The position numbers and the translations under genes were made by a program. A DNA stretch of 64,000 bases from Haloterrigena salina JCM 13891 (GTDB taxonomy: Archaea; Halobacteriota; Halobacteria; Halobacteriales; Natrialbaceae), in assembly GCF_000337495.1 (NCBI RefSeq), contig NZ_AOIS01000036.1:1-64000 (forward strand). The letters are read 5' to 3'. Shown piece by piece: positions 39,390 to 64,000 of the stretch. Every line of letters begins with the position of its first letter. Within the stretch, counting starts at the first letter, position 1. The notes beneath the pieces were generated by a model. It did no database searches. It had not been told where the DNA came from and saw only the letters and a list, made by a program, of their open reading frames with translations.

Positions 39390-40421
39390 ATGGAAGTGCC
39401 GTGCGTCCGCGCGCCGCGCGAGGAAGGGGAAGCCACGCGTCAGCGACTCGCGGACGCGGACCTGATCGACGACGAGTACGAACTGACCGTCGACGACGGC
39501 AGCCTCTACATCCCGATCGCCGACCCCGACGCGGTTCCCGCGGAGTTCGAGGTCGTCTCCCGGACGCTCGAGGAGCGCGAGACACAGACGACGCCCGCGG
39601 ACCTGCTCGGCTTCGAGCCGTCCTACGAGCGACTGGGCCGCGCGGCACTGCTCGACGAGGACGACGACGAACGCGCCCGGGAGATCGCCGACGCGATCGT
39701 CGCGTCGGATCTGCCCCTCGAGACGGTCCTCAACAAGGCCTCGAAAGTGAAGGGGGAGACCCGCGTCCGCGACTGGGAACTGCTCGCGGGCGCGAACACG
39801 GAGGTCGTCCACCGCGAGTACGGCTGCGAGTTCCTGCTGGATCTCGCCGAGGTGTACTTTTCGCCGCGACTCGCGACCGAGCGCAATCGAGTCGTCGAGC
39901 AAATTACCGCGGACGAGCACGTCTTCGACATGTTCGCCGGTGTCGGCCCGTTCGTGATCCCCATCGCGAAGCGCGGCGCCGAGTGCGTCGGCGTCGACGT
40001 CAACCCGGACGCCATCGACTACTTGCGGGAGAACGCGCGCCGCAACGGCGTCGAGGATCGGGTGACGGCGATCTGTGACGACGTCCGCAACCTCGTTGCG
40101 GGCTCGTCGCGCGAACGGTGTGAGTGCGACGGTGTTCGCGAGGTGACGCCCGAGTACGAGGGCTGGGCCGACCGCGTCGTGATGAACCTCCCCCACAGCG
40201 CCGACGAGTTCCTCGAGGCCGCCGTCACCGTCGCGGGCGACGACTGCGTGCTCCACTACTACGACATCCAGCACGAGGACGATCCATTCGGTCCCGGAGA
40301 GCGAGCGATCCGCGAGGCCGCCGAACCGGCGTACGACGTTTCGGTGGAGACGGAACGGGTCGTTCGCTCCTACGCCCCCCACGAACTGAACGTCTGTCTG
40401 GACGTCCGACTCGAGCGCTGA
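39390..40421 (+). CDS. trm5: tRNA (guanine37-N1)-methyltransferase Trm5
   Basis: Adds a methyl group to G37 beside the anticodon, using S-adenosylmethionine. 343 residues: the D1/D2 region (about 1-130), then the Rossmann methyltransferase with HVFDMFAGVGPFVIPIAKRG near residue 176, GVDVNPDAIDYLRENARRNGV near 200 and the catalytic NLPH motif (VVMNLPHSADEFLEAA) near 263, in the usual NPP position. A tRNA gene follows 84 bases downstream. Start at ATG 39390 gives the normal length. Confidence 0.93.
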   Translation: MEVPCVRAPREEGEATRQRLADADLIDDEYELTVDDGSLYIPIADPDAVPAEFEVVSRTLEERETQTTPADLLGFEPSYERLGRAALLDEDDDERAREIADAIVASDLPLETVLNKASKVKGETRVRDWELLAGANTEVVHREYGCEFLLDLAEVYFSPRLATERNRVVEQITADEHVFDMFAGVGPFVIPIAKRGAECVGVDVNPDAIDYLRENARRNGVEDRVTAICDDVRNLVAGSSRERCECDGVREVTPEYEGWADRVVMNLPHSADEFLEAAVTVAGDDCVLHYYDIQHEDDPFGPGERAIREAAEPAYDVSVETERVVRSYAPHELNVCLDVRLER

Positions 40422-40466
40422 CTCGAGGTACGAGATCCCATCGCACGGCCGTAACGATTCGCAATC

Positions 40467-40473
40467 CTTATGG
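40467..40473 (+). promoter_or_regulatory. TATA box of the tRNA-Thr gene
   Basis: CTTATGG, preceded by GCAATC, lies 33 bases before the first base of the tRNA, giving a start a few bases ahead of the mature 5' end. This matches archaeal tRNA promoters. Confidence 0.6.
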
Positions 40474-40505
40474 CTGGTATCGGCCCTACAACAGAGTACA
40501 CTCGC

Positions 40506-40579
40506 GCCGGTGTAGCTCAGACTGGCAGAGCGAATCCTTCGTAAGGATTAGGTCGAGGGTTCAAATCCCTCCACCGGCT
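40506..40579 (+). tRNA. tRNA-Thr (anticodon CGT)
   Basis: A 74-base cloverleaf. The acceptor GCCGGTG (40506-40512) pairs with CACCGGC (40572-40578), with discriminator T40579. The D arm holds TAGCTCAGACTGGCAGA. The anticodon stem AATCC/GGATT encloses loop TTCGTAA with anticodon CGT at 40540-40542, reading ACG (Thr). The T arm has GAGGGTTCAAATCCCTC. No intron is seen, CCA is not encoded, and the T-rich TTTCCTTTT after it looks like a terminator. Confidence 0.96.
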
Positions 40580-40588
40580 TTCCTTTTG
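40579..40588 (+). terminator. T-rich terminator after tRNA-Thr
   Basis: TTTCCTTTTG immediately follows the mature tRNA sequence. Short T-tracts are the usual archaeal RNA polymerase stop signals. Confidence 0.5.
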
Positions 40589-40677
40589 CGACGAATCGCT
40601 TCGCGATACCAGTTGCAGAGTGGCAACTGAACACGGACTGGCGCTGAAAAAGGACAGTGGTCAGGAACGGAGAGTCC

Positions 40678-41433
40678 TCAGAAGATCCCGAGAATGAACG
40701 TCAGTCCCATACCCACCAGCACCGTCGCCGTCAGCAACGGTAGGTACGGCGTGTATCGGTCGACCGTTTCGCGGTGGCGTTCGTAGCCTGCGATCAAGAG
40801 GAGCGTCGGAATGAGGATCGCAATGATCACGACCAGCGAATAAACCAGCATCAGTTCCAGGCAGTAGGCCGTCCCCGTACAGATCGCCAGAATTTGAATC
40901 GGCTCCTCGTGGGCGAACCCCAGCAGGAGGGCGGTCGTCCCGAGGGCCATCAATCCGCGTTCAGCGTCTTCGTCACTCAAATGACGATGTCCGCCGAACA
41001 GTCGCTCCCGAATCCGGGTCAGTCTCCCGCGCTGGGAGGTGGTCCCCGAATGGTTGTGGTCGTGTGAATGATCGTGTTCATGAGTGTGGGTATGGGCGTG
41101 GTCGTGGTGGGACTCATCGTGATCGTGACCTGACCCGTGTCCGCCGTTCCGATATTCGTGGATTCCCAGTAGAATGAGGATGATCCCTGCGATATATCGC
41201 ATCCACGGGCCTTCGGCGAAGGCAGCGAAGCGACTGAACCAAAAGTACGCCACTACCAGTGCGACGCTGCTAATCAGATGTCCGACTCCGAGAACGAGTC
41301 CTGCGACCGCCCCGTAGAGCCACGTCCGCGAGCGATTCAACCCGTAGGTCGCAGCGATCGGCCACCCGTGATCCGGGAGCACGCCGTGGATAAAGCCGAT
41401 CGTAACGACACCTGCAACGAGACCGAGATCCAT
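40678..41433 (-). CDS. Nickel/cobalt permease with histidine-rich loop (NiCoT/RcnA-like)
   Basis: 251 residues from ATG 41433 (MDLGLVAGVVTIGFIHGVLP). Six or so membrane segments. The metal motif HGVLPDH at residues 16-22 fits the H-x(4)-D signature of nickel/cobalt permeases. A cytoplasmic or loop segment (about 110-145) is almost pure His/Asp/Glu, with alternating HD and HT pairs, followed by GFAHEEPIQILA in a later TM. Either uptake or efflux is possible; the divergent nikR argues for nickel. Confidence 0.88.
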   Translation of the reverse strand: MDLGLVAGVVTIGFIHGVLPDHGWPIAATYGLNRSRTWLYGAVAGLVLGVGHLISSVALVVAYFWFSRFAAFAEGPWMRYIAGIILILLGIHEYRNGGHGSGHDHDESHHDHAHTHTHEHDHSHDHNHSGTTSQRGRLTRIRERLFGGHRHLSDEDAERGLMALGTTALLLGFAHEEPIQILAICTGTAYCLELMLVYSLVVIIAILIPTLLLIAGYERHRETVDRYTPYLPLLTATVLVGMGLTFILGIF

Positions 41434-41503
41434 GCGGAATCCTCGGGAGAGACGGCACAAAAATGCTGTTAGCACCGATTGAGGGGGATCGTAATACCCC
41501 GGT

Positions 41504-41540
41504 CGGCGTGAAAAACCACAGCACCCATTCGTTCACCCCG
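41504..41540. promoter_or_regulatory. Inverted repeat between the nickel permease and nikR (candidate NikR operator)
   Basis: CGGCGTGAA (41504-41512) and TTCACCCCG (41532-41540) are reverse complements at eight of nine positions, separated by 19 bases. The arrangement, with widely spaced half-sites centred 28 bases apart, resembles the long-spaced half-sites of bacterial NikR. It sits upstream of both divergent genes. Only a binding test can confirm it. Confidence 0.5.
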
Positions 41541-41559
41541 CTAAGTCCGCTGTAACCAG

Positions 41560-41946
41560 ATGCGTACCAGTTTCAATATTCCGGATGACTTACTCGAGGA
41601 ATTTGATCAGACGTGGCAGACTGAGGGATTCGACTCCCGGTCACGAGCAGTTCGGGAAGCGATGCAGGAGTATATCGAGGCTCACACCGAACTCGAGACC
41701 GTCTCGGGCGAAGTGACAACCGCGCTTGCCTTCGATTATCAACACGAGCACGTGATCCGCGAACTCCACGACGTACAACACGATTTTCAGGATATCATTA
41801 CGACGACGAGCCACACGCACGAAGGCGATTGGTGTCTGGAAACGATTTTCTGTCGCGGCGAGGCGGCCCGCGTTCGCAAACTCGTGTATCGACTCCGCGA
41901 TTTCGACGCCGTGGGACAGGTAAAAGTCCTGTTACTTCGGTCTTGA
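41560..41946 (+). CDS. nikR: Nickel-responsive regulator NikR
   Basis: 128 residues. The ribbon-helix-helix N-terminus is MRTSFNIPDDLLEEFD...SRSRAVREAMQEYIE (1-40). The ACT-like metal-sensing C-domain has the square-planar nickel ligands in the NikR pattern: H74 (VQHDF), H85 and H87 (SHTHEGDW) and C92 (WCLE). In E. coli the equivalents are H76, H87, H89 and C95. It is divergent from the nickel permease, which it probably represses when nickel is sufficient. Confidence 0.92.
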   Translation: MRTSFNIPDDLLEEFDQTWQTEGFDSRSRAVREAMQEYIEAHTELETVSGEVTTALAFDYQHEHVIRELHDVQHDFQDIITTTSHTHEGDWCLETIFCRGEAARVRKLVYRLRDFDAVGQVKVLLLRS

Positions 41947-42173
41947 ATATCCCTGCAGTTGTTTCGAGTGGCCGGTTATCGACGAGACGAGCGATGTGAG
42001 TTCTCGATTACGCTGTCGCCGTCCGAGTGAAACGCAATGCCTCCAGAAACCCCCATCTCCGAACTCGACAACCGCCGCATTCCGCGACGGCGACCGCGTT
42101 CGAACGGCGGACTCGACGAGTCCGAATCCGTCTAGACAGGGACGACAAGGAAGACAGGATTGTTGATCGGCAC

Positions 42174-42543
42174 ATGTGCGCGTCGGCAGAATACACTCCG
42201 CTCGACGAGACGGATCGGAAAATCCTCCAACGCCTGCAGCGCGACGCGCGAAACAAAATCGCGGTCGAGATCGGGGAGCAGATCGGCGTTTCGGACGGCA
42301 CCGTTCGGAACCGCATCAGAAACTCGAGCAACGGGGAATCATCGAAGGCTACGTTCCGACCATCAACTACGAGAACGCTGGTTATCACGACGTAACGCGT
42401 ATTGCGCAGACGCTCGATACGCTCGGGCACCAGGTGGAGAGCGAAGAACTCCTCCGACACACTACTTTCGACCGTTCGATCACTTTGGGAGCGAATCCAG
42501 GGCCGACGAGAGCGAGCCGGATGCGGACCACGAACTGTCCTGA
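42174..42543 (+). pseudogene. Lrp/AsnC-family regulator, frame-shifted and internally deleted
   Basis: ATG 42174 opens the HTH (LDETDRKILQRLQRDARNKIAVEIGEQIGVSDGTVRNRI). A missing base near 42322 moves the next part, KLEQRGIIEGYVPTINYEN, to another frame. That ends at NAGYHDV, where about 40 residues of the RAM sensor domain appear lost. A remnant RIAQTLDTLGHQVESEELL follows, then THYFRPFDHFGSESRADES in a third frame to a stop at 42541. It is a degraded one-component amino-acid-type regulator; the pieces suggest decay rather than a working gene. Confidence 0.75.
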
Positions 42544-42670
42544 GCGAGTCGCCAGCTTCGGGTTTTGATGATCGTAACGCGATGCGATTTAGAGAATCGA
42601 ATCGAGATTGGCTTCGATAATCCAAGCATCTTCGCCAGTTCGGTACGATAATAGAACCGTTCAGAAAGAG

Positions 42671-42677
42671 TTTATAA
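42671..42677 (+). promoter_or_regulatory. TATA box before the 87-residue ORF
   Basis: TTTATAA lies 24-30 bases ahead of ATG 42701, the spacing of a leaderless haloarchaeal promoter. Confidence 0.6.
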
Positions 42678-42700
42678 CTGCCGAGTGGATTGAGGGTGGT

Positions 42701-42964
42701 ATGGAACGTAGCCAGCACGCGAGTTCTCATCCCACTGGAAAGCAGTTTTCGCTGGTCACCAACGCCGCTTTGTTGAAATTCCTTCTGCGTTATCGGAGTA
42801 TCGAACCGGGCGCTCTCGAGGCGGCTATCCGCGGGACGGGCGCGAGGACGATATCCGTCGAATCTTTGAGAGATGCTAGTATCGGCGGACCCGGCGGCAC
42901 TGTTCGAGTTTCTGTGGAGAACAGCGTCACAGGAGTTCGGATAGAGTCGACGAGAGGAAGCTGA
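42701..42964 (+). CDS. Small unknown protein with a leaderless promoter
   Basis: 87 residues starting MERSQHASSHPTGKQFSLVTNAALL. A helical middle (LLKFLLRYRSIEPGALEAAIR) and a glycine-rich end (GGPGGTVRVSVENS) show no catalytic motif. I do not recognise the family. TATA spacing supports translation from ATG 42701. A zinc-ribbon ORF follows 11 bases later, so the pair may be cotranscribed. Confidence 0.5.
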   Translation: MERSQHASSHPTGKQFSLVTNAALLKFLLRYRSIEPGALEAAIRGTGARTISVESLRDASIGGPGGTVRVSVENSVTGVRIESTRGS

Positions 42965-42975
42965 TCGACGGTCGT

Positions 42976-43107
42976 ATGGACGCGTACATCGAGTGCGACG
43001 AGTGCGGCTTCGTGCTCCTCTCTGAGAGCGCTTCCGAACCGCTCCCGAAGCGGGTTGATTCGTGCCCCGGCTGTGGCGGAACGAGTTTTCGATTCACCGC
43101 GGGCTAA
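42976..43107 (+). CDS. 43-residue zinc-ribbon peptide
   Basis: The ATG at 42976 opens 43 codons: MDAYIECDECGFVLL..., then CPGCGGTSF and the end TAG-TAA. Two CxxC pairs (CDEC at residues 7-10 and CPGC near 31-34) form a zinc ribbon of the small haloarchaeal class often involved in protein or nucleic-acid binding. It lies close behind the 87-residue gene. Length and composition support a real product. Confidence 0.65.
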   Translation: MDAYIECDECGFVLLSESASEPLPKRVDSCPGCGGTSFRFTAG

Positions 43108-43204
43108 CTGCGTATCTGGCGGTGCTCGCTCTCGGGAGATCGGTACGGCGCGATTCGAGTGAGTGCATCCGCGCCACATTCGTGCATCATCCGGCAGTAA
43201 ACAC

Positions 43205-43230
43205 CAAAATTGTTTGGGAGTACAATTTTG
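43205..43230. repeat. Perfect inverted repeat CAAAATTGT-N8-ACAATTTTG
   Basis: Half-sites at 43205-43213 and 43222-43230. AT-rich dyads of this sort in haloarchaeal gaps are often operators. It has no adjacent gene start within 100 bases. Confidence 0.7.
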
Positions 43231-43259
43231 CCGATCGAACGTCTAGAAGCGATCGCAGG

Positions 43260-43283
43260 GAATCCGGATCGAGATCCGGGTTC
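43260..43283. repeat. GC-rich hairpin around CCGGATC-GA-GATCCGG
   Basis: A perfect 7-bp stem (43264-43270 and 43273-43279), extended to 11 bp by flanking GAAT/GTTC with one G-T pair. Confidence 0.6.
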
Positions 43284-43317
43284 GCCCACCGCGGTTGGCC
43301 GCAGTCGGCGGCCACTC

Positions 43318-43332
43318 GTGGACATCATCCAC
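43318..43332. repeat. Dyad GTGGA-CATCA-TCCAC (inverted copy of the site at the next gene's start)
   Basis: It shares the 13-base core TGGACATCATCCA with the reverse complement of 43584-43596, where the core overlaps the ATG of the small winged-helix gene. Each copy is itself a TGGA-N5-TCCA dyad. This could be an autoregulatory operator pair. Confidence 0.5.
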
Positions 43333-43553
43333 TTCCGACCGATCCGTAACGCAGTCGCGCCGAGAGCGATCGCTCTTCTCACGAGACGCCGATACATCTG
43401 CTATCGCTCGCTCGACCGATACGTAATTTGATAAAACGACCGGTCCAGCGGAAATTATGTCACGCTCGAGAGGCCGATATCACTCATGAATAATGGTCAA
43501 GAATATCGCCGGCTGCGTACGGTCTATGATGTGTGGGACCACCTCTCAATCAG

Positions 43554-43560
43554 CTTTATG
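43554..43560 (+). promoter_or_regulatory. TATA box before the winged-helix gene
   Basis: CTTTATG, centred about 30 bases before ATG 43587, predicts a leaderless transcript. Confidence 0.55.
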
Positions 43561-43586
43561 TGTCGGTTCGTTGCCGTCGTCCATGG

Positions 43587-43805
43587 ATGATGTCCACAAG
43601 CGAACACCAGCCGACAGTACCGGACGAATTCGACGCGCCGCGGACGAAGCTCGTGTATCTCTCCGTGCTGGTACTCGAAGAGGCGACGGTGTCCGAACTC
43701 CAGCAGCTGCTGGGACTATCGAAATTGACACTTCTGCCGATTCTGCGATCGCTCGTCGAGGGGGGCCGCGTTCGGTCCACGGAGGTCGGCTATGCCTGCC
43801 GGTGA
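43587..43805 (+). CDS. Small winged-helix DNA-binding protein
   Basis: 72 residues (71 if ATG 43590 is used) starting MMSTSEHQPTVPDEF. The helices TKLVYLSVLVLEEATVSELQQLLGLSKLTLLPILRSLVEGGRVRS form a complete winged-helix motif of MarR/TrmB type with no sensor domain. The dyad TGGA-N5-TCCA covers its start codon, which suggests autoregulation. It overlaps the following gene by 14 bases, so the three genes to 45206 are a coupled unit. Confidence 0.75.
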   Translation: MMSTSEHQPTVPDEFDAPRTKLVYLSVLVLEEATVSELQQLLGLSKLTLLPILRSLVEGGRVRSTEVGYACR

Positions 43806-44409
43806 GGTCGAATCGCCGTTCGCGCCGGTCATCGATATCGATTCGGCCGCGAGTCTCCGGGTCGACTGTTACGTCCGTGGGAGCGTTCCGCCGGCCATCA
43901 CGGCGACCATCGACGACGTCGTTGAGCGGCTCCGAGACCTCGACGAACGCGACGTGATCGACGACCACCGGGTGATCCACTGGCCGCCCGAGTACCGCTC
44001 GACCGCCGGATCGACCGGTGAAAACGGGTCGACCCGCGACGAACTCGTCGCCGAGTTCGAACGCTGGGCCGCCCGGAACGGCCACTCGCTCGAGCCGGCG
44101 TTTCGCCGACAGGCGGTTCCGCCGTCGCCGTTCGACACCGACTCCGACCAACCGCGCGAGCGAGTTCGGGTTCCGGTCGTCGCGCTGGCGATCTCCGAGG
44201 TCGAAGAGGACGCGACGATCGCGGACGCCGTCGACGCGAACGCAGCGTCGATTCGAGGCGTCGTCCCCTATACGGAACGGCCGTCGGCGGAGCGGTCGCG
44301 GACGTACACCGTCAACGACCTGCTCGCGACCGTCGAAACGAACGGGAACGACGTTCTCACGGGGACGCACCAACGCGAGGGCCCGACGCCGCTTGGGGGC
44401 CGCCAATGA
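43792..44409 (+). CDS. Conserved haloarchaeal HTH-associated protein
   Basis: 205 residues starting MPAGEVESPFAPVIDIDSAAS. The pattern DCYVRGSVPPAITATIDDVVERLRDLDER...IHWPPE...ELVAEFERWAARNGHSLEPAF resembles a haloarchaeal family I remember as HTH-domain proteins of unknown role. No HTH is plain here. It overlaps both neighbours (14 and 4 bases), implying a functional link with the winged-helix protein and the reductase. Confidence 0.6.
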   Translation: MPAGEVESPFAPVIDIDSAASLRVDCYVRGSVPPAITATIDDVVERLRDLDERDVIDDHRVIHWPPEYRSTAGSTGENGSTRDELVAEFERWAARNGHSLEPAFRRQAVPPSPFDTDSDQPRERVRVPVVALAISEVEEDATIADAVDANAASIRGVVPYTERPSAERSRTYTVNDLLATVETNGNDVLTGTHQREGPTPLGGRQ

Positions 44410-55735: not shown

Positions 55736-57334
55736 TTAGTGGTCGTGACGATGATCGTGGTCGTGTCCGTGGCCGTGGCTGTGATCGTGTCCGTGGCCGT
55801 GGCTGTGATCGTGTCCGTGGCCGTGGCTGTGATCGTGTCCGTGGCCGTGGCTGTGATCGTGCCCGCCGCGGGTGAACTGCCCCGAGAACGCCCGCTGGAC
55901 GACCTCCGAGAGCGCGGGATGGATGTGCACTGACTCGCGGATGTCTCGAACCGTTCCCGAGCCGGCCGTCATCGCGACGACGACCTCCTCGATCAAATTA
56001 GAGGCCTCCGGGCCGACGATGTGACAGCCGAGGATCTCTCCCTCGAGGGAGATGAGCGGCTTGACCATCCCCTCGACCTTCATCGCCGAGCCGCGGGCGG
56101 TGTCCTCGTACCGGTACGTGCGCTTGGCGTAGTCGCGGTCGGCGGCCTGCAGTTCCGCCTCCGTGGCGCCGACGCCGGCGACCTCCGGCGAGGAGAAGAC
56201 GGCGAAGGGCATCGCGTCGTAGTCGACCGGCTCGAGGCCGTCGCCGAAGAGGTTGCGAACGACGGCCCGGGCTTCGTGGTTGGCGTTGTGCTTGAGCAGG
56301 TACTCGCCGACGATGTCGCCCAGCGCCCAGACCCCGTCGGCGCTCGTCCGCAGGTACTCGTCCGTCTCGACGAACCCCAGCTCGTCCGTCTCGATCCCCG
56401 CCGCGCTCGCGTTCAGCGTATCGGTGTTCGGAACGCGCCCGGTGGCGACGAGCAGTTCGTCGCCGGTGACGGAGAGCCGCTCGGCCGCGCCCTCGCCGCG
56501 TTCTGGCGCCGGATACGGCGTCGACCCCGGCTCCGCTCCCGTCTCCGATTCCGCTTCCGGTTCGGAGTCGGCCGCCGGATACGGCCGCGCGTCGACGGTC
56601 ACCTCGCCGTCGGACTCCGAGACGGCCGTGGCCTCGTAGCCCGTGTACACGTCGTACCGGTCCGCGAGTCGCTCCGTGAACTCGGCGGCGACCGCCGCGT
56701 CGGCGTCCGGAAGCAGGTGCGGGCGCCGCCCGATAATCGAGACGTCGCTCCCGAACGCTCCGAAGAAGTGGCCCAACTCCGCCGCGATATAGCCGCCGCC
56801 GACGATGACGAGGTGTTCCGGCGGCTCCTCGAGTCGGAGCGCCTCCCGGCTCGTCAGGTAGTCGGTGTCCTCGATGCCGTCGACCTGAGGGACGCCGGGA
56901 CGGGTGCCGGCCGCGACGAGGACCGTTTCGGCGGTCAGGCGCTCGCCGTCGTGATCCCCGCCCGAGAGTTCGACGGTTCGCTCGTCGACGAACTCCCCCT
57001 CCGCCCGGTAGAGGTCGTGATCCGAGGAGGACTCGAGCCCCCGGCGGATCGACTCCGAGCTTCCGGCGACGTCCTCGTTGACCTCGCGGACGATGTCGGC
57101 GAAGGCGACGTCATCGACCGTCGTCTCGATGCCGAACTCCTCGGCGCGCTCGACTGTCTCGAGTACCTCCGCGCGGTACAATAGCTGCTTCGAAGGGATA
57201 CAGCCGCGGTTGAGGCAGGTCCCGCCGAGCCGCCCCTTCTCGACGACGGCGACCGACTGACCGCGCCCTGCGGCCGCGTTCGCGACGTCGAGCCCCGATC
57301 CCGAACCGACGACCAGGAAATCGTACTCCTCCAT
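55736..57334 (-). CDS. Dihydrolipoamide dehydrogenase/mercuric-reductase-like flavoenzyme with a histidine-repeat tail
   Basis: 532 residues from ATG 57334 (MEEYDFLVVGSGSGLDVANA). FAD motif GSGSGLDVANAAAGRG near residue 10, redox disulfide C40-C45 in GGTCLNRGCIPSK, NAD motif VIVGGGYIAAELGHFFGAFG near 177, and the C-terminal dimer domain with HIHPALSEVVQRAF. The NAD and interface regions are lpd-like, not merA-like (no N-terminal HMA domain). The last ~45 residues are four exact copies of an eight-residue His/Asp/Ser/Gly unit plus extra His-Asp pairs, absent from normal Lpd. It may bind Ni, Zn, Cu or Hg. Upstream frames are not convincing starts. Confidence 0.88.
   Translation of the reverse strand: MEEYDFLVVGSGSGLDVANAAAGRGQSVAVVEKGRLGGTCLNRGCIPSKQLLYRAEVLETVERAEEFGIETTVDDVAFADIVREVNEDVAGSSESIRRGLESSSDHDLYRAEGEFVDERTVELSGGDHDGERLTAETVLVAAGTRPGVPQVDGIEDTDYLTSREALRLEEPPEHLVIVGGGYIAAELGHFFGAFGSDVSIIGRRPHLLPDADAAVAAEFTERLADRYDVYTGYEATAVSESDGEVTVDARPYPAADSEPEAESETGAEPGSTPYPAPERGEGAAERLSVTGDELLVATGRVPNTDTLNASAAGIETDELGFVETDEYLRTSADGVWALGDIVGEYLLKHNANHEARAVVRNLFGDGLEPVDYDAMPFAVFSSPEVAGVGATEAELQAADRDYAKRTYRYEDTARGSAMKVEGMVKPLISLEGEILGCHIVGPEASNLIEEVVVAMTAGSGTVRDIRESVHIHPALSEVVQRAFSGQFTRGGHDHSHGHGHDHSHGHGHDHSHGHGHDHSHGHGHDHDHRHDH
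55763..55858. repeat. Four perfect 24-bp tandem repeats
   Basis: Unit starts are 55763, 55787, 55811 and 55835, all identical. Read on the minus strand each unit encodes eight residues alternating His with Asp/Ser/Gly. They lie in the last part of the flavoenzyme gene. Confidence 0.95.
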
Positions 57335-57476
57335 GCGCCGAACTCCGGTGCCGGTCGTAATGAAGGCCGGGCCGGAATGCACGGGACGTGCACGTTCACT
57401 GCGGCCTGCGGAGTCTCGTCCCTGCTCCCGAGTGGCACCCGTCTCGAGGATCGCACCGCCTCGGATCCGGCTCCCC

Positions 57477-58181
57477 CTACAGTAACGCCGACAGCGCGAG
57501 CACGACGGCGGCGGCGAGAGCGGGATAGTCGAGTCGCGAGAGCGACAGCGCGGGCAGGGTGGGATTCCAGGCGAAACACCGCGCCTGCATGGCGAGCGCG
57601 AGGCGATCGGCTCGGTCGAACGCCCGCGAGAGGCCCAACAGTCCCAGCGTACTCGCGCGGTCGACGGCGCTTCGCTGGTCGCCAAGCCGCGCCGCCATCG
57701 CGTCGCTGATCGTCCGCAGATCGGCCTGCAGGACCGGCAGGAACCGGAAGACGAGCGCGACGCCGATCCCGAGGAGCTGGCCCGGTTTCCCTGGAATCGT
57801 CCGCTGGATCGCGGCGCGAGAGTCCCGGACCGTCGTCGAACGGACGTACGCCGCGCTAACGAGCAGGACGAGCAGGACGCGGTAGCTCGCCCGCGCGGAG
57901 GCGAGGCCGTCCGCGAGGTCGAGCCAGGGCGAACCGAACGTGAGCGCCGCGAGTACCGGTGCGAGCGAGAGGAAGAGCAGGGCGAAGCGATAGGCGGACA
58001 GCGTCTCGAGGAGCGGAACGCGAGCGCTAAGCAGGATCGTCGCGGCGACGGCGGTGAGCGCGACCAGTGCCCGCGGGCTCGTGTGGGCCAGCGCGGTCGC
58101 GGCGAACCCGAACTGGACGGCCAGCTTCGAGCGGGGGTCGAGCCGGTGGGCGAGCGTGTCGTCGGGGTCGTAGGTGAGCAT
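57477..58181 (-). CDS. bioN: Energy-coupling factor transporter transmembrane protein (EcfT/BioN)
   Basis: 234 residues with about five membrane segments and the EcfT coupling helices, including RTIPGKPGQLLGIGVALVFRFLPVLQADLRTISDAM near residue 128 and LGLLGLSRAFDRADRLALAMQARCF near 180 (Ala-Arg-Gly-like motifs). With BioM it drives biotin uptake by BioY. It is the last gene of bioY-bioM-bioN, 50 bases after bioM. Confidence 0.9.
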   Translation of the reverse strand: MLTYDPDDTLAHRLDPRSKLAVQFGFAATALAHTSPRALVALTAVAATILLSARVPLLETLSAYRFALLFLSLAPVLAALTFGSPWLDLADGLASARASYRVLLVLLVSAAYVRSTTVRDSRAAIQRTIPGKPGQLLGIGVALVFRFLPVLQADLRTISDAMAARLGDQRSAVDRASTLGLLGLSRAFDRADRLALAMQARCFAWNPTLPALSLSRLDYPALAAAVVLALSALL

Positions 58182-60079: not shown

Positions 60080-63000
60080 ATGAGTCGGCGTCGAGGCGCA
60101 GCCGTGGCGGCGCTCGCCGTCGCCGCGCTGCTGATCACGAGCGCGGTGGCGCTGCCGCTGCTCGGCGGCGGTATCGTCCCGTTTGAGGGCGGCGAGAGCG
60201 CTCCCGGCGAGGGAGACGGCGGAACGGCCGGTATCGCCGCTGCAGACAGTGCAACCGCCAGTCAAGACGACGACAGCGGGAGTGCGAACGCCACCGCCGC
60301 GGATGCGGCGGATCGCGAACCCGTGCGCGCGAGCCAGTCGGCCGCGGATAGCGAGTTAGTGTCGTTCGACTCCGCGGCGGAGTCCGCCGCGACCGACGAC
60401 GACGCGAGCGCCTCGCTCGCACAGGAACAGACGACGGCCGTCGAGGCCGGCGTCGACGAAGGAACCGAACTGGCCCAGCAGCAGGGCATTGAGGTGAGCC
60501 AGGAACAGCGCGCGGCGGCCGTCGGGGCCGCCAGCCGGTCGGTTGCCCAACACCAAGCGGCCGACGCCGAGCAGATTCAGGCGGCGACGGCCGGCGCGGT
60601 CCACGGCTCGCTAATCCAGTCCCAGGACGCCGAGATCGAACAGATCCAGGCCGCGGTCGGCGGCGCGACCGACGGCGCGCTCGCCCAGTCCCAGACGGTC
60701 TCGGCGGACCAGATGCAGAGCGCGACCTGGGGGGCGACACACGGCGCGCTCGCCCAGAAACAGCGCGCCGATGTCGACCAGATTCAGGTCGCGACGCGCG
60801 GGGCCGCAGCGGGGGCGTGCCGGGAAGCGGGCGATAGCGACGTGCAGGACCACCCCAAGACCCAGGAGGCCGCGCAAGGGGCGGCCTACGGCGTCCTCGA
60901 GCAGTACCAGCAGATCACCGTCGAACAGCGCCAGCGGATCACGCTCGAGCACGTCCAGCACGCGGCGGCCGGCGCGTCCGCGGGGGCACTCGAGGGGAGC
61001 GTTCCGGCGGCCCTCGAGGGCGAACAGAGCCAGGAGATCGACATCGAGCAGCGCCAGCGCGTGAACATCAAGCAGGTCCAGAAGGCTGCTACGGGCGCCG
61101 CGAAGGGCGCGCTCGTCCAGCGACAGACGGTCTCCGTCGAGCAGACCCAGGCCGCGGCTCGCGGGGCCGGCAGGGGGTCGCTGACGCAGCTCCAGACCGT
61201 CAGCGTCGAACAGGTCCAGCGGATCTCGATCACCCAGATTCAGGAGGCCTCGTTCGGCGCCGCCAAGGGGGCGATCTATCAGAGCCAGTCGGCCACGGTC
61301 GAGCAGATCCAGGCGGCGGCCGACGGGGCCGCGGGCGGCGTGCTGGTCCAGCACCAGGAGATTTCGATCACCCAGATCCAGTACGCCGCGGTCGGCGCGT
61401 CCAAGGGAGCGATCGAGTCGGCGGTCCAGTACCAGATCGCCGAGATCGAACAGATTCAGGCCGCCGCGTTCGGCGCCGGCGAGGGGGCGGTACTCCAGCA
61501 ACAGGTCGTCGACGTCACGCAGATCCAGCGGCTGGCGACCGGCGGCGCCAGCGGCGCGCTGAGCCAGTCCCAGGAGGCGACCGTCGAGCAGATCCAGATC
61601 GCCGCCAGCAGCGCCACGCAGGAGACGGCCCGCGTCGTCCAGTACCAGCGGATCAGCGTCACGCAACTACAGATCCTGACCCGGGAGACCGCGTCCGACG
61701 CCACCGCGTACGCGGTTCAGCAGGGAATCGACGACGTCTCCGAACTCAGGCAGTACGTCGAGGACGAGGCCGAAGAGCGCGCCGATGAAATCGACGAACT
61801 CGAGGGAACGGCGTCGATTACGTTCGCCGATCAGGAGAGCGACGGCGAGACGGTCGCCGTCGACGAGCTCGACCTCTCGGAGGGCGGCTTCGTCGCGATC
61901 TACGCGGCCGACGCCGTCGCCGATCCGGGCGCCGTGCTCGGGACCTCGAGTGCCCTCGAGGCCGGGACCCACTCCGGCGTCGAGATCGACTTGGAGGAGC
62001 CGATCGAGGAGGACCAGCCCCTCACCGCGGTGGTCCACCACGATACGAACGACGACGGAACGTTCGAGTACGGCGACACCGACGGAGCGGAGGACGTCCC
62101 GTACGTCACCGACGCCGGCGTGCCGGTGCTCGATACGGCGTTCGTTTCGGTCGGCGACGAGCCACAGGAGCCCCAGGAACCGGCCGAGCCGAACGCGACG
62201 CTCTCCGTCGTCGATCAGGCCGGCAACGGCGAGACGCTGACAGTCGACGAAGCGAACGCGAGCGTCGATTACGCCGTGACGGCGACGGCCAACGAGTCGA
62301 CGGCCGAGAGCCAGCTGTTCGAAGCCAACGAGACAGCGTCGGATCTCGAGCTCGAGTTCGACTCGCCGCTCGAGGCAAATGCGACGGTCGACGTCGCCGT
62401 CACCGACGAGAACGGCACGGCGCTGGTGAACGAATCCGTCGAGTACACGGTCGACGACGCTCCAGACGAACCGGCTGAGCCGAACGAATCGAATGCGACG
62501 CTCAACGTGTCGGATCAGACGGGCGACGGCGAGACACTCGTCGTCGACGAGGCGAACGCGAGCGTCGACTACCGACTCACCGCGACCGACGAGAACGGCA
62601 CGCAGCGCGCTGAGAGCGAGACCTTCGAGGCCAACGAGACCGCCGAATTCGAGGCCCTGGACCTCGAGCCGCCGCTCGAAGAGAACGCGACGCTCGAGGT
62701 CGCCGTCGCGGACGACACAGGCGAGGAACTCGCGACGGAATCGATCGAGTACACGGTCGACGGCGATCCGGCGACGTTCGAGGCGACGTTCCCTCGCTGT
62801 TCGCAGACCGAGGTGACCGGCTCCTTCGACGCGGGCGACAGGATCATCGTCGGCACCGCGTTCTACGAAAGCGGCGGCTTCGGCAACTCGATGGGCGAGT
62901 ACGCCATCACGGTCGGCGAGGACGTCGAAGCGCCGTTCGAGGGGACGATCACCTACGAGACCGGCGACGACTTCACCGTCGCCGAGACGGCCGACGGCGC

Positions 63001-64000
63001 GACCGTCACGGTCCCCGAGGGCGATACGGGCGCCGTGATCACCGGCTTCGCGTCGCCCGAGGCGACGCCGGGGTCGATCGACTACCCGAACCCCAATGCC
63101 AGCGAGTGTCTCGAAGAGATCCGGCCCGAACGGCCGAACATCAGCGTGGCGGAGACGACGCCGACCGAGGACGACATCGCGGTCACCTTCGAGTACGAGA
63201 ATCCGAACGAGGAATCGCTGGTGGTCGGCAGCGAGTTCGTCGAGGGGACCACGGACGACAAGCCGCCGTCGGAACTCGAGCCCGGCAACGACTCGTTCAC
63301 CGTCGACTGGACGCCCGAAAACGACTCCGAACGACTCGTCTGGGAGGTCGACATGAGCAACTACGACTACGAGGAGCCGCTGACCGCCCAGACGGAGCCA
63401 GCCGGCGAGATCGATTCGAGCGAACCGACCGAACCTGCCGCGTTCAATGTCTCGATCACGGAGGCGAACGACTCGGTCGAAGCGGGTGATCCTCTCGAGG
63501 TCGACGCCGCGATCGAGAACACCGGCGGGGAGAACGGCACGCAGGACGTTCAGCTGGCGATCGACGGCTCGGTCGTCAACGAGACACCGGTCTCGCTCGC
63601 GCCCAACGGATCCGAAGCCGTGACGCTGACCGCCGACACGACCGCTCTCGAGCCCGGCGAGTACCCGGTCACGGTCTCGACTGACAACGCGACCGCCGAG
63701 ACGACCGTAACGATCGAGGAGCCCGGCGAGGCCGAGTTCGCCATCGCCGACCTCGAGGCACCGGCGTCCGGCGAGCCGGGGTCGTCGGTGACGGTCGACG
63801 CGACGATCGAAAACGTCGGCGACGCCGGGGGCACCCAGACGGTGAGCTACGCCGTCGACGGCCAGACCGTCGCAGAGGAGAGCGTCGCGCTCGAGGCCGG
63901 CGGCGCGACGACCCTGTCGTTCTCGTTGACGCTGCCGGAAACCGACTCGACGCACACGGTCGCGACCGACGACGAGCAGGCGTCGGTGACCATCGCGGCG
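60080..64000 (+). CDS. Giant secreted protein with glutamine-rich repeats, DUF7282-like and CARDB domains (runs off the window)
   Basis: At least 1307 residues without a stop. Signal peptide (residues 1-26, MSRRRGAAVAALAVAALLIT), then an acidic linker to about 113. Residues ~114-550 are about 17 imperfect repeats of 23 residues, pattern x-[VI]-x-Q-[IV]-Q-x-A-A-x-G-A-x-x-G-A-L-x-Q-x-Q. Eight-residue sub-blocks (x-[VI]-x-[VI]-x-Q-[VI]-Q) are occasionally inserted to give 31. Residues ~580-690 resemble DUF7282 (VAIYAAD...GTHSGVEI...VVHHDTNDDGTF). Two tandem ~90-residue Asn-rich modules (62191-62766) follow, then a module, then two CARDB-like beta domains (63439-63720, 63736-end). Many N-x-S/T sequons suggest surface N-glycosylation. 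Probably a cell-surface or matrix protein. Confidence 0.85.
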   Translation, partial: MSRRRGAAVAALAVAALLITSAVALPLLGGGIVPFEGGESAPGEGDGGTAGIAAADSATASQDDDSGSANATAADAADREPVRASQSAADSELVSFDSAAESAATDDDASASLAQEQTTAVEAGVDEGTELAQQQGIEVSQEQRAAAVGAASRSVAQHQAADAEQIQAATAGAVHGSLIQSQDAEIEQIQAAVGGATDGALAQSQTVSADQMQSATWGATHGALAQKQRADVDQIQVATRGAAAGACREAGDSDVQDHPKTQEAAQGAAYGVLEQYQQITVEQRQRITLEHVQHAAAGASAGALEGSVPAALEGEQSQEIDIEQRQRVNIKQVQKAATGAAKGALVQRQTVSVEQTQAAARGAGRGSLTQLQTVSVEQVQRISITQIQEASFGAAKGAIYQSQSATVEQIQAAADGAAGGVLVQHQEISITQIQYAAVGASKGAIESAVQYQIAEIEQIQAAAFGAGEGAVLQQQVVDVTQIQRLATGGASGALSQSQEATVEQIQIAASSATQETARVVQYQRISVTQLQILTRETASDATAYAVQQGIDDVSELRQYVEDEAEERADEIDELEGTASITFADQESDGETVAVDELDLSEGGFVAIYAADAVADPGAVLGTSSALEAGTHSGVEIDLEEPIEEDQPLTAVVHHDTNDDGTFEYGDTDGAEDVPYVTDAGVPVLDTAFVSVGDEPQEPQEPAEPNATLSVVDQAGNGETLTVDEANASVDYAVTATANESTAESQLFEANETASDLELEFDSPLEANATVDVAVTDENGTALVNESVEYTVDDAPDEPAEPNESNATLNVSDQTGDGETLVVDEANASVDYRLTATDENGTQRAESETFEANETAEFEALDLEPPLEENATLEVAVADDTGEELATESIEYTVDGDPATFEATFPRCSQTEVTGSFDAGDRIIVGTAFYESGGFGNSMGEYAITVGEDVEAPFEGTITYETGDDFTVAETADGATVTVPEGDTGAVITGFASPEATPGSIDYPNPNASECLEEIRPERPNISVAETTPTEDDIAVTFEYENPNEESLVVGSEFVEGTTDDKPPSELEPGNDSFTVDWTPENDSERLVWEVDMSNYDYEEPLTAQTEPAGEIDSSEPTEPAAFNVSITEANDSVEAGDPLEVDAAIENTGGENGTQDVQLAIDGSVVNETPVSLAPNGSEAVTLTADTTALEPGEYPVTVSTDNATAETTVTIEEPGEAEFAIADLEAPASGEPGSSVTVDATIENVGDAGGTQTVSYAVDGQTVAEESVALEAGGATTLSFSLTLPETDSTHTVATDDEQASVTIAA

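Follow-up and report, generated by a model that had tools for sequence, protein, structure and literature searches.

A 23-residue Gln- and Ala/Gly-rich repeat domain of secreted haloarchaeal proteins, with a probable two-unit structural period

Gene and domain organization

The window analysed here, a 64,000-nucleotide stretch from Haloterrigena salina JCM 13891, ends within a gene for a secreted, modular haloarchaeal protein, the N-terminal domain of which is a region of tandem repeats. The complete gene encodes 1364 amino acids in the assembly (L002, 4081-8175) and ends at about window coordinate 64174. The main features are as follows.

60080..64000, + strand: repeat-protein gene, with an ATG at 60080 and a single open frame that passes the window end; orthologues have the same start position
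60080..60160, + strand: Sec-type signal peptide or N-terminal anchor, recognized by eye, with the sequence MSRRRGAAVAALAVAALLITSAVALPLLGGG
60161..60448, + strand: acidic low-complexity linker, poorly conserved (26-52% identity over residues 1-108)
60449..61684, + strand: repeat domain of 16 units, mostly of 23 residues, each with a Gln block and an Ala/Gly helix block
61811..62146, + strand: DUF7282 domain (PF23951), residues 578-689, Pfam 4e-37
63743..63988, + strand: CARDB domain (PF07705), residues 1222-1303, Pfam 5e-10

Inspection by eye of the N-terminal signal (60080..60160) found no lipobox Cys. The DUF7282 and CARDB matches are well above the Pfam cut-offs (127.2 bits versus 27 and 39.9 bits versus 22.7, respectively), confirming both of the domains that the initial annotation had recognized by likeness after the repeats. 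The remaining C-terminal parts comprise more Ig-like segments, CARDB and then a Pro/Glu-rich tail. The surface or extracellular placement suggested earlier is likewise supported, as a secreted location. The repeats previously placed at 60341-61740 are real, but that span begins about 100 bases too early, since 60341-60448 belongs to the low-complexity linker.

The repeat domain (60449-61684) contains 16.5% Gln and 12.6% Asp plus Glu, compared to 2.1% and 23.7% in the remainder of the sequence. It is strikingly non-acidic for a haloarchaeal secreted protein, and the low acidity is of note given that the host organism is expected to live at high salt.

Elsewhere in the window, a gene at 55736-57685 (- strand) encodes a flavoprotein-like product, which we read as a dihydrolipoamide dehydrogenase-like flavoprotein, with a His-rich tandem tail of GHDHSHGH repeats (a 24-base unit at 55757-55865, 97% matches) that is possibly a metal-binding tail. 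The GC content falls to 58-59% at 40001-44000, versus about 67% elsewhere, and this segment is perhaps acquired DNA.

The repeat unit

Self-identity within the repeat region at a lag of 23 residues is 0.268, compared to a maximum of 0.166 over lags 1-79 in 500 shuffles. The span 60449-61684 contains 16 Gly-Ala blocks, with additional Gln octads; the initial count of about 17 repeats was therefore a fair one. Most units are 23 residues long, and some have 25, 26, 31 or more. From 1791 units in 137 proteins, which are also the basis of the covariation analysis, we derived the consensus QxQx[VA][TSND][VI][ET]Q[IVL]QxAAxGAAxGALx (numbered Q1, Q3, [VA]5, [TSND]6, [VI]7, [ET]8, Q9, [IVL]10 and Q11 in the first half, and A13, A14, G16, A17, A18, G20, A21, L22 and x23 in the second). 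Gln is near 90% at four positions of the unit, and the conservation of single columns is 94% for Q9, 91% for Q3 and 80% for G16. The pattern at positions 5, 6, 9 and 10 is what we take to be a capping box and hydrophobic staple, as known from helix N-termini. The variable positions have helix spacing at 8, 12, 15, 19 and 23, and strand spacing at 23, 2, 4, 6 and 8.

Changes in length of -1, +1, +2, +3 or +5 fall between G20 and the next Q1; other units differ by whole octads. The extra eight residues are a duplicated Q-x-Q-x-V-x-V-x block, and a spacing of 31 occurs 87 times in the family. Three octads lie in the gene described here, and the 31-residue unit is found at the same place in most orthologues.

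60926..60949, + strand: extra Gln octad in a 31-residue unit
61049..61072, + strand: extra Gln octad in an irregular 41-residue unit
61211..61234, + strand: extra Gln octad in a 31-residue unit

A frameshift or sequencing error was considered for one odd unit (GACREAGDSDVQDHPKTQEAAQG) and rejected, as the unit is common to orthologues. The octad duplications, along with stand-alone QSQSVDVSQSQ blocks in a short paralogue (see below), uphold the earlier suggestion that the Gln block is an independent module.

Distribution and relatives

The repeats have no match in Pfam, NCBIfam, PHROGs or PDB sequences, and a literature search found no paper that names DUF7282 or describes such repeats. Judged by these sequence searches, the family is undescribed in the libraries searched, in agreement with the first impression that it belongs to no named family. 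Haloarchaeal homologues, for which a search had been proposed, are numerous. A relative is present in 94/111 good genomes of the family to which the window belongs (Natrialbaceae), mostly as a single copy, and in 112/345 good genomes sampled across the order; 20 of 321 genomes in a sample of the phylum have one, all within the same order. No relatives were identified on viral contigs, and plasmids gave two weak haloarchaeal matches. The domain, close to universal in one haloarchaeal family and common in several more, is without a name in the libraries searched.

Flanking genes are conserved in three named relatives (Natronorubrum thiooxidans, Natrinema ejinorense and N. altunense), with a divergent transporter-like cluster upstream, which we read as a BioY/ECF-type transporter cluster, and small conserved genes downstream. 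The N-terminal domain has different fusion partners in other haloarchaeal families, namely TSP3 repeats, NosD-type beta-helices, CAP or CarboxypepD_reg domains. Given this variety of partners across families, the repeat domain is a module of secreted proteins.

Some relatives have unusual architectures. In one frame of 2292 residues (L053; G014:C1:222000-232000) the repeat domain occurs together with TSP3 repeats, numerous Ig-like segments of the Asn-Pro-Asn type, a CAP domain and, at the C-terminus, a membrane anchor. Two short paralogues of about 300 amino acids (L052, G051:C2:530500-534500, and L120, G008:C1:1825400-1827800) have a Tat-type signal, a few repeat units, a Lys-rich linker that is unusual for haloarchaea and, at the C-terminus, three conserved stand-alone Gln blocks (QSQSVDVSQSQ).

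Covariation and structural period

Couplings within the unit were calculated with the near-invariant Gln columns left out. Over positions 1-11 the mean coupling peaks at a separation of two residues (2.0), which is strand-like and bears out the earlier description of a strand-like Gln block alternating with a Gly-Ala block. Over positions 12-23 the peaks are at separations of four (1.47) and three (0.83), which is helix-like, with all other separations below 0.4.

Between units, the mean of the ten highest couplings is 3.0 both at lag 1 and at lag 2 (0.9 and 1.2 in re-paired controls), and near background at lag 3 (1.9 versus 1.4). Many single couplings reflect orthology; thus we used the pattern alone and not individual pairs. 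At lag 2 the couplings of the helix block fall on helix-parallel offsets (permutation p < 0.001), a pattern that is also found in orthologues alone and in other families alone (p <= 0.01 in each). Adjacent units prefer antiparallel pairs (position sums 33-35), a preference that is not significant by itself (p 0.06-0.46). Gln-Gln couplings between units (Q9-Q3' and Q3-Q3'') were discarded because they are based on single rare sequences.

Same-position residue agreement in excess of chance is 0.016, 0.067, 0.016 and 0.037 at lags 1, 2, 3 and 4. The excess of lag 2 over lag 1 has a bootstrap interval over proteins of 0.037-0.065 and holds in both subsets; the difference is at most 0.016 when the order of units is shuffled within proteins. 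Because units two apart are more alike, and covary more, than neighbours, the structure probably repeats every two units (46 residues). An old duplication of two-unit blocks could also raise identity at lag 2, but is insufficient by itself, because the lag-2 couplings show offsets of three and four residues.

Fixed length and conserved residues

The number of recognized units is identical (14) in 80/81 orthologues, so that copy number is not variable among close relatives, and 42 orthologues have an identical string of spacings. The order of units is also conserved (0.91, versus about 0.5 at random). Of all long stretches of the protein, the repeats show the highest conservation (66-72% identity), above the average of the downstream domains. 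Since both number and order are fixed across orthologues, the role of stalk or adhesin that was first put forward is unlikely, at least as a simple stalk or an adhesin of variable length.

Particular residues recur at intervals of two units near the N-terminus.

60602..60604, + strand: conserved His175, unit position 19 (92/98 proteins)
60728..60742, + strand: conserved Trp217 and His221 (unit positions 15 and 19, respectively), two units past His175
60866..60889, + strand: conserved Glu263, Gln266 and Tyr270 (positions 12, 15 and 19), two units after His221

Two units past His175, position 15 is aromatic in 96/98 proteins and position 19 is His in 97/98. Two units further on, Glu at 12, Gln at 15 and Tyr/Phe at 19 are present in 98/98, a count that is partly required by the alignment anchor; a further 29 proteins lack this anchor and are therefore outside the 98. 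The units in between have small or variable residues at those positions, and such near-invariance is found in the alternate N-terminal units only. With a period of 46 residues, the conserved residues would share one face over three turns.

Structure prediction

An AlphaFold2 prediction of the whole domain from four sequences had a pLDDT of 33 and was not used for claims about the fold. A second prediction covered seven units, with phase-matched later units as added rows; only non-overlapping units were added, because MAFFT put unit-shifted rows back in the native register. From this shallow alignment we obtained a pLDDT of 60 and a pTM of 0.53 (pLDDT about 61-83 over residues 1-100; 31-40 in the four sister models). 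In the model each unit forms a single helix, about 17 residues long (positions 7 to 24), and a loop of 5-6 residues over positions 2-6, where covariation suggests a strand. Neither prediction (whole domain or seven units) contains strands, only helices. Thus the regular solenoid with coaxial Gln rows that the initial annotation looked for in a structure prediction did not appear, the helices that did being of modest confidence.

Among solved structures the matches were weak, with designed helical repeats at the top (Foldseek E 0.25); the best Z with VIA was 6.8, to a designed filament, and the viral structure library yielded no fold match to the model. Lack of a clear fold match does not show that the fold is new. 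The predictions and structure searches support helices, with the model's modest confidence, and not a particular topology.

Proposed fold and alternatives

We propose that the domain is a fixed-length extracellular solenoid, helical or of strand and helix, that presents a conserved patch to a partner, a reading to which we give about an even chance. Each 23-residue unit would begin with an extended Gln block and continue with an alpha-helix rich in Ala and Gly, somewhere within positions 7-24. The units would stack with a period of 46 residues, so that every helix lies close to those of the two following units. The domain would work as an extracellular recognition scaffold. One face of its N-terminal turns would offer a conserved patch (His / aromatic-His / Glu-Gln-Tyr) to a ligand or partner, and the downstream Ig-like domains (DUF7282, CARDB and others) may add reach or attach elsewhere. 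The topology, the exposure of the patch, the binding role and the partner are what we infer here, and much of the doubt that is left concerns the Gln block, as a strand or as a loop. One explicit topology, a straight 11-residue strand followed by a helix with adjacent helices antiparallel, was dropped on geometry, because the distance to be bridged from one helix to the one after it would be too great.

A bolder version, which we consider rather improbable, holds that a strand-plus-helix module of 23 residues is used twice per 46-residue turn in alternate orientation. Almost identical modules would thereby build two faces, one of which carries the conserved His, aromatic, Glu and Tyr residues as a ligand or metal site in haloarchaeal surface receptors. 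This would be a new class of solenoid, to which the short Tat-exported paralogues might dock with their free Gln blocks.

We consider unlikely a purely helical fold, either an alpha-solenoid or a helical bundle, with the Gln block as an ordinary loop and no strand. The AlphaFold2 helices and intervening loop are as it requires, and the nearest solved structures, at weak scores, are designed helical repeat proteins. A plain loop leaves unexplained why Gln is near 90% at four positions, why octads are duplicated and why couplings peak at a separation of two.

The most serious rival of another kind, and a decidedly doubtful one, is a trimeric alpha/beta coiled-coil fibre with two heptads and one nonad per unit (23 = 3 x 7 + 2). 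In such coiled coils heptads are interrupted by insertions of 2 or 6 residues, and an insertion of two residues gives rise to a short beta-layer within a parallel trimer (eLife 2016, PMC4786415). The arithmetic (21 + 2) fits this rule, the hydrophobic or small residues V5, V7, I10, A14, A17 and A21 have heptad spacing with one +2 step, and spacing is strand-like around positions 4-8 and helix-like elsewhere. However, positions that would be on the outside (Q9, G16 and Q3) are strongly conserved, linkers of +1 and +3 and octads (+8) break the 2-or-6 rule, and neither lag-2 couplings nor the alternation of units is expected in a rod of equivalent layers.

We regard as similarly doubtful the beta-solenoid or stacked-Gln ladder of the initial annotation, in which each unit of 23 residues makes one turn that encloses ladders of Gln and Val, possibly as an amyloid-like stack in the biofilm matrix. 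The alternating QxQxVxVxQxQ pattern with its high Gln content, the separation-2 couplings within the Gln block and the stand-alone Gln blocks of the paralogue are in keeping with it. Biofilms of Haloferax volcanii reportedly contain Congo-red- and thioflavin-positive amyloid material (PMC4180959), with no tie to the repeat protein. A coil made of strands throughout, with a period equal to the sequence repeat, is disfavoured, on indirect evidence, by the helix-like covariation of half of each unit (positions 12-23, the Gly-Ala half), the exclusively helical AlphaFold2 predictions, the two-unit period of 46 residues and the linker lengths of -1, +1, +2, +3 and +5.

A purely passive role, as a spacer or stalk that keeps the Ig-like domains at a distance from the cell, is suggested by the N-terminal placement ahead of those domains, but is very improbable in view of the fixed number and order of units, the superior conservation of the domain and the invariant residues at solvent-side positions.

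If the solenoid reading is true, it adds a repeat architecture of unusual Ala/Gly/Gln composition, far less acidic than the rest of the protein, and draws attention to a secreted protein that has a candidate patch for binding, the residues of which could be mutated directly.

Comparison with known repeat systems

DUF7282 (PF23951) and CARDB (PF07705) are both C-terminal in the protein, and the repeat domain is distinct from them as an undescribed module at the N-terminus. Curli (CsgA-type) repeats are Gln-rich and 22-23 residues long. The haloarchaeal repeats are alike in length and Gln richness, but lack the Ser/Asn/Gln ladder spacing, and half of the unit covaries as a helix. The alpha/beta coiled coils Tcar0761 and OMP100 (PMC4786415) share a helix broken by a short strand and the relation 23 = 21 + 2, whereas the haloarchaeal repeats have conserved outer positions, a two-unit period and linkers outside the 2-or-6 rule.

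Profile and sequence searches gave no match of the repeats to TPR, HEAT, ARM or another named repeat family. The likeness to TPR, HEAT, ARM and the designed proteins DHR4 and DHR8 is one of architecture, as helices are likely stacked, two per structural period, with contacts to neighbours and next neighbours; structural matches of the model are weak. A helix in each repeat, as in alpha-solenoids, is indicated by the consensus, by covariation and by the modest-confidence AlphaFold2 model. Unlike known alpha-solenoids, the haloarchaeal unit has only 23 residues and one helix, is rich in Ala, Gly and Gln, and carries a conserved Gln block that can be duplicated as octads.
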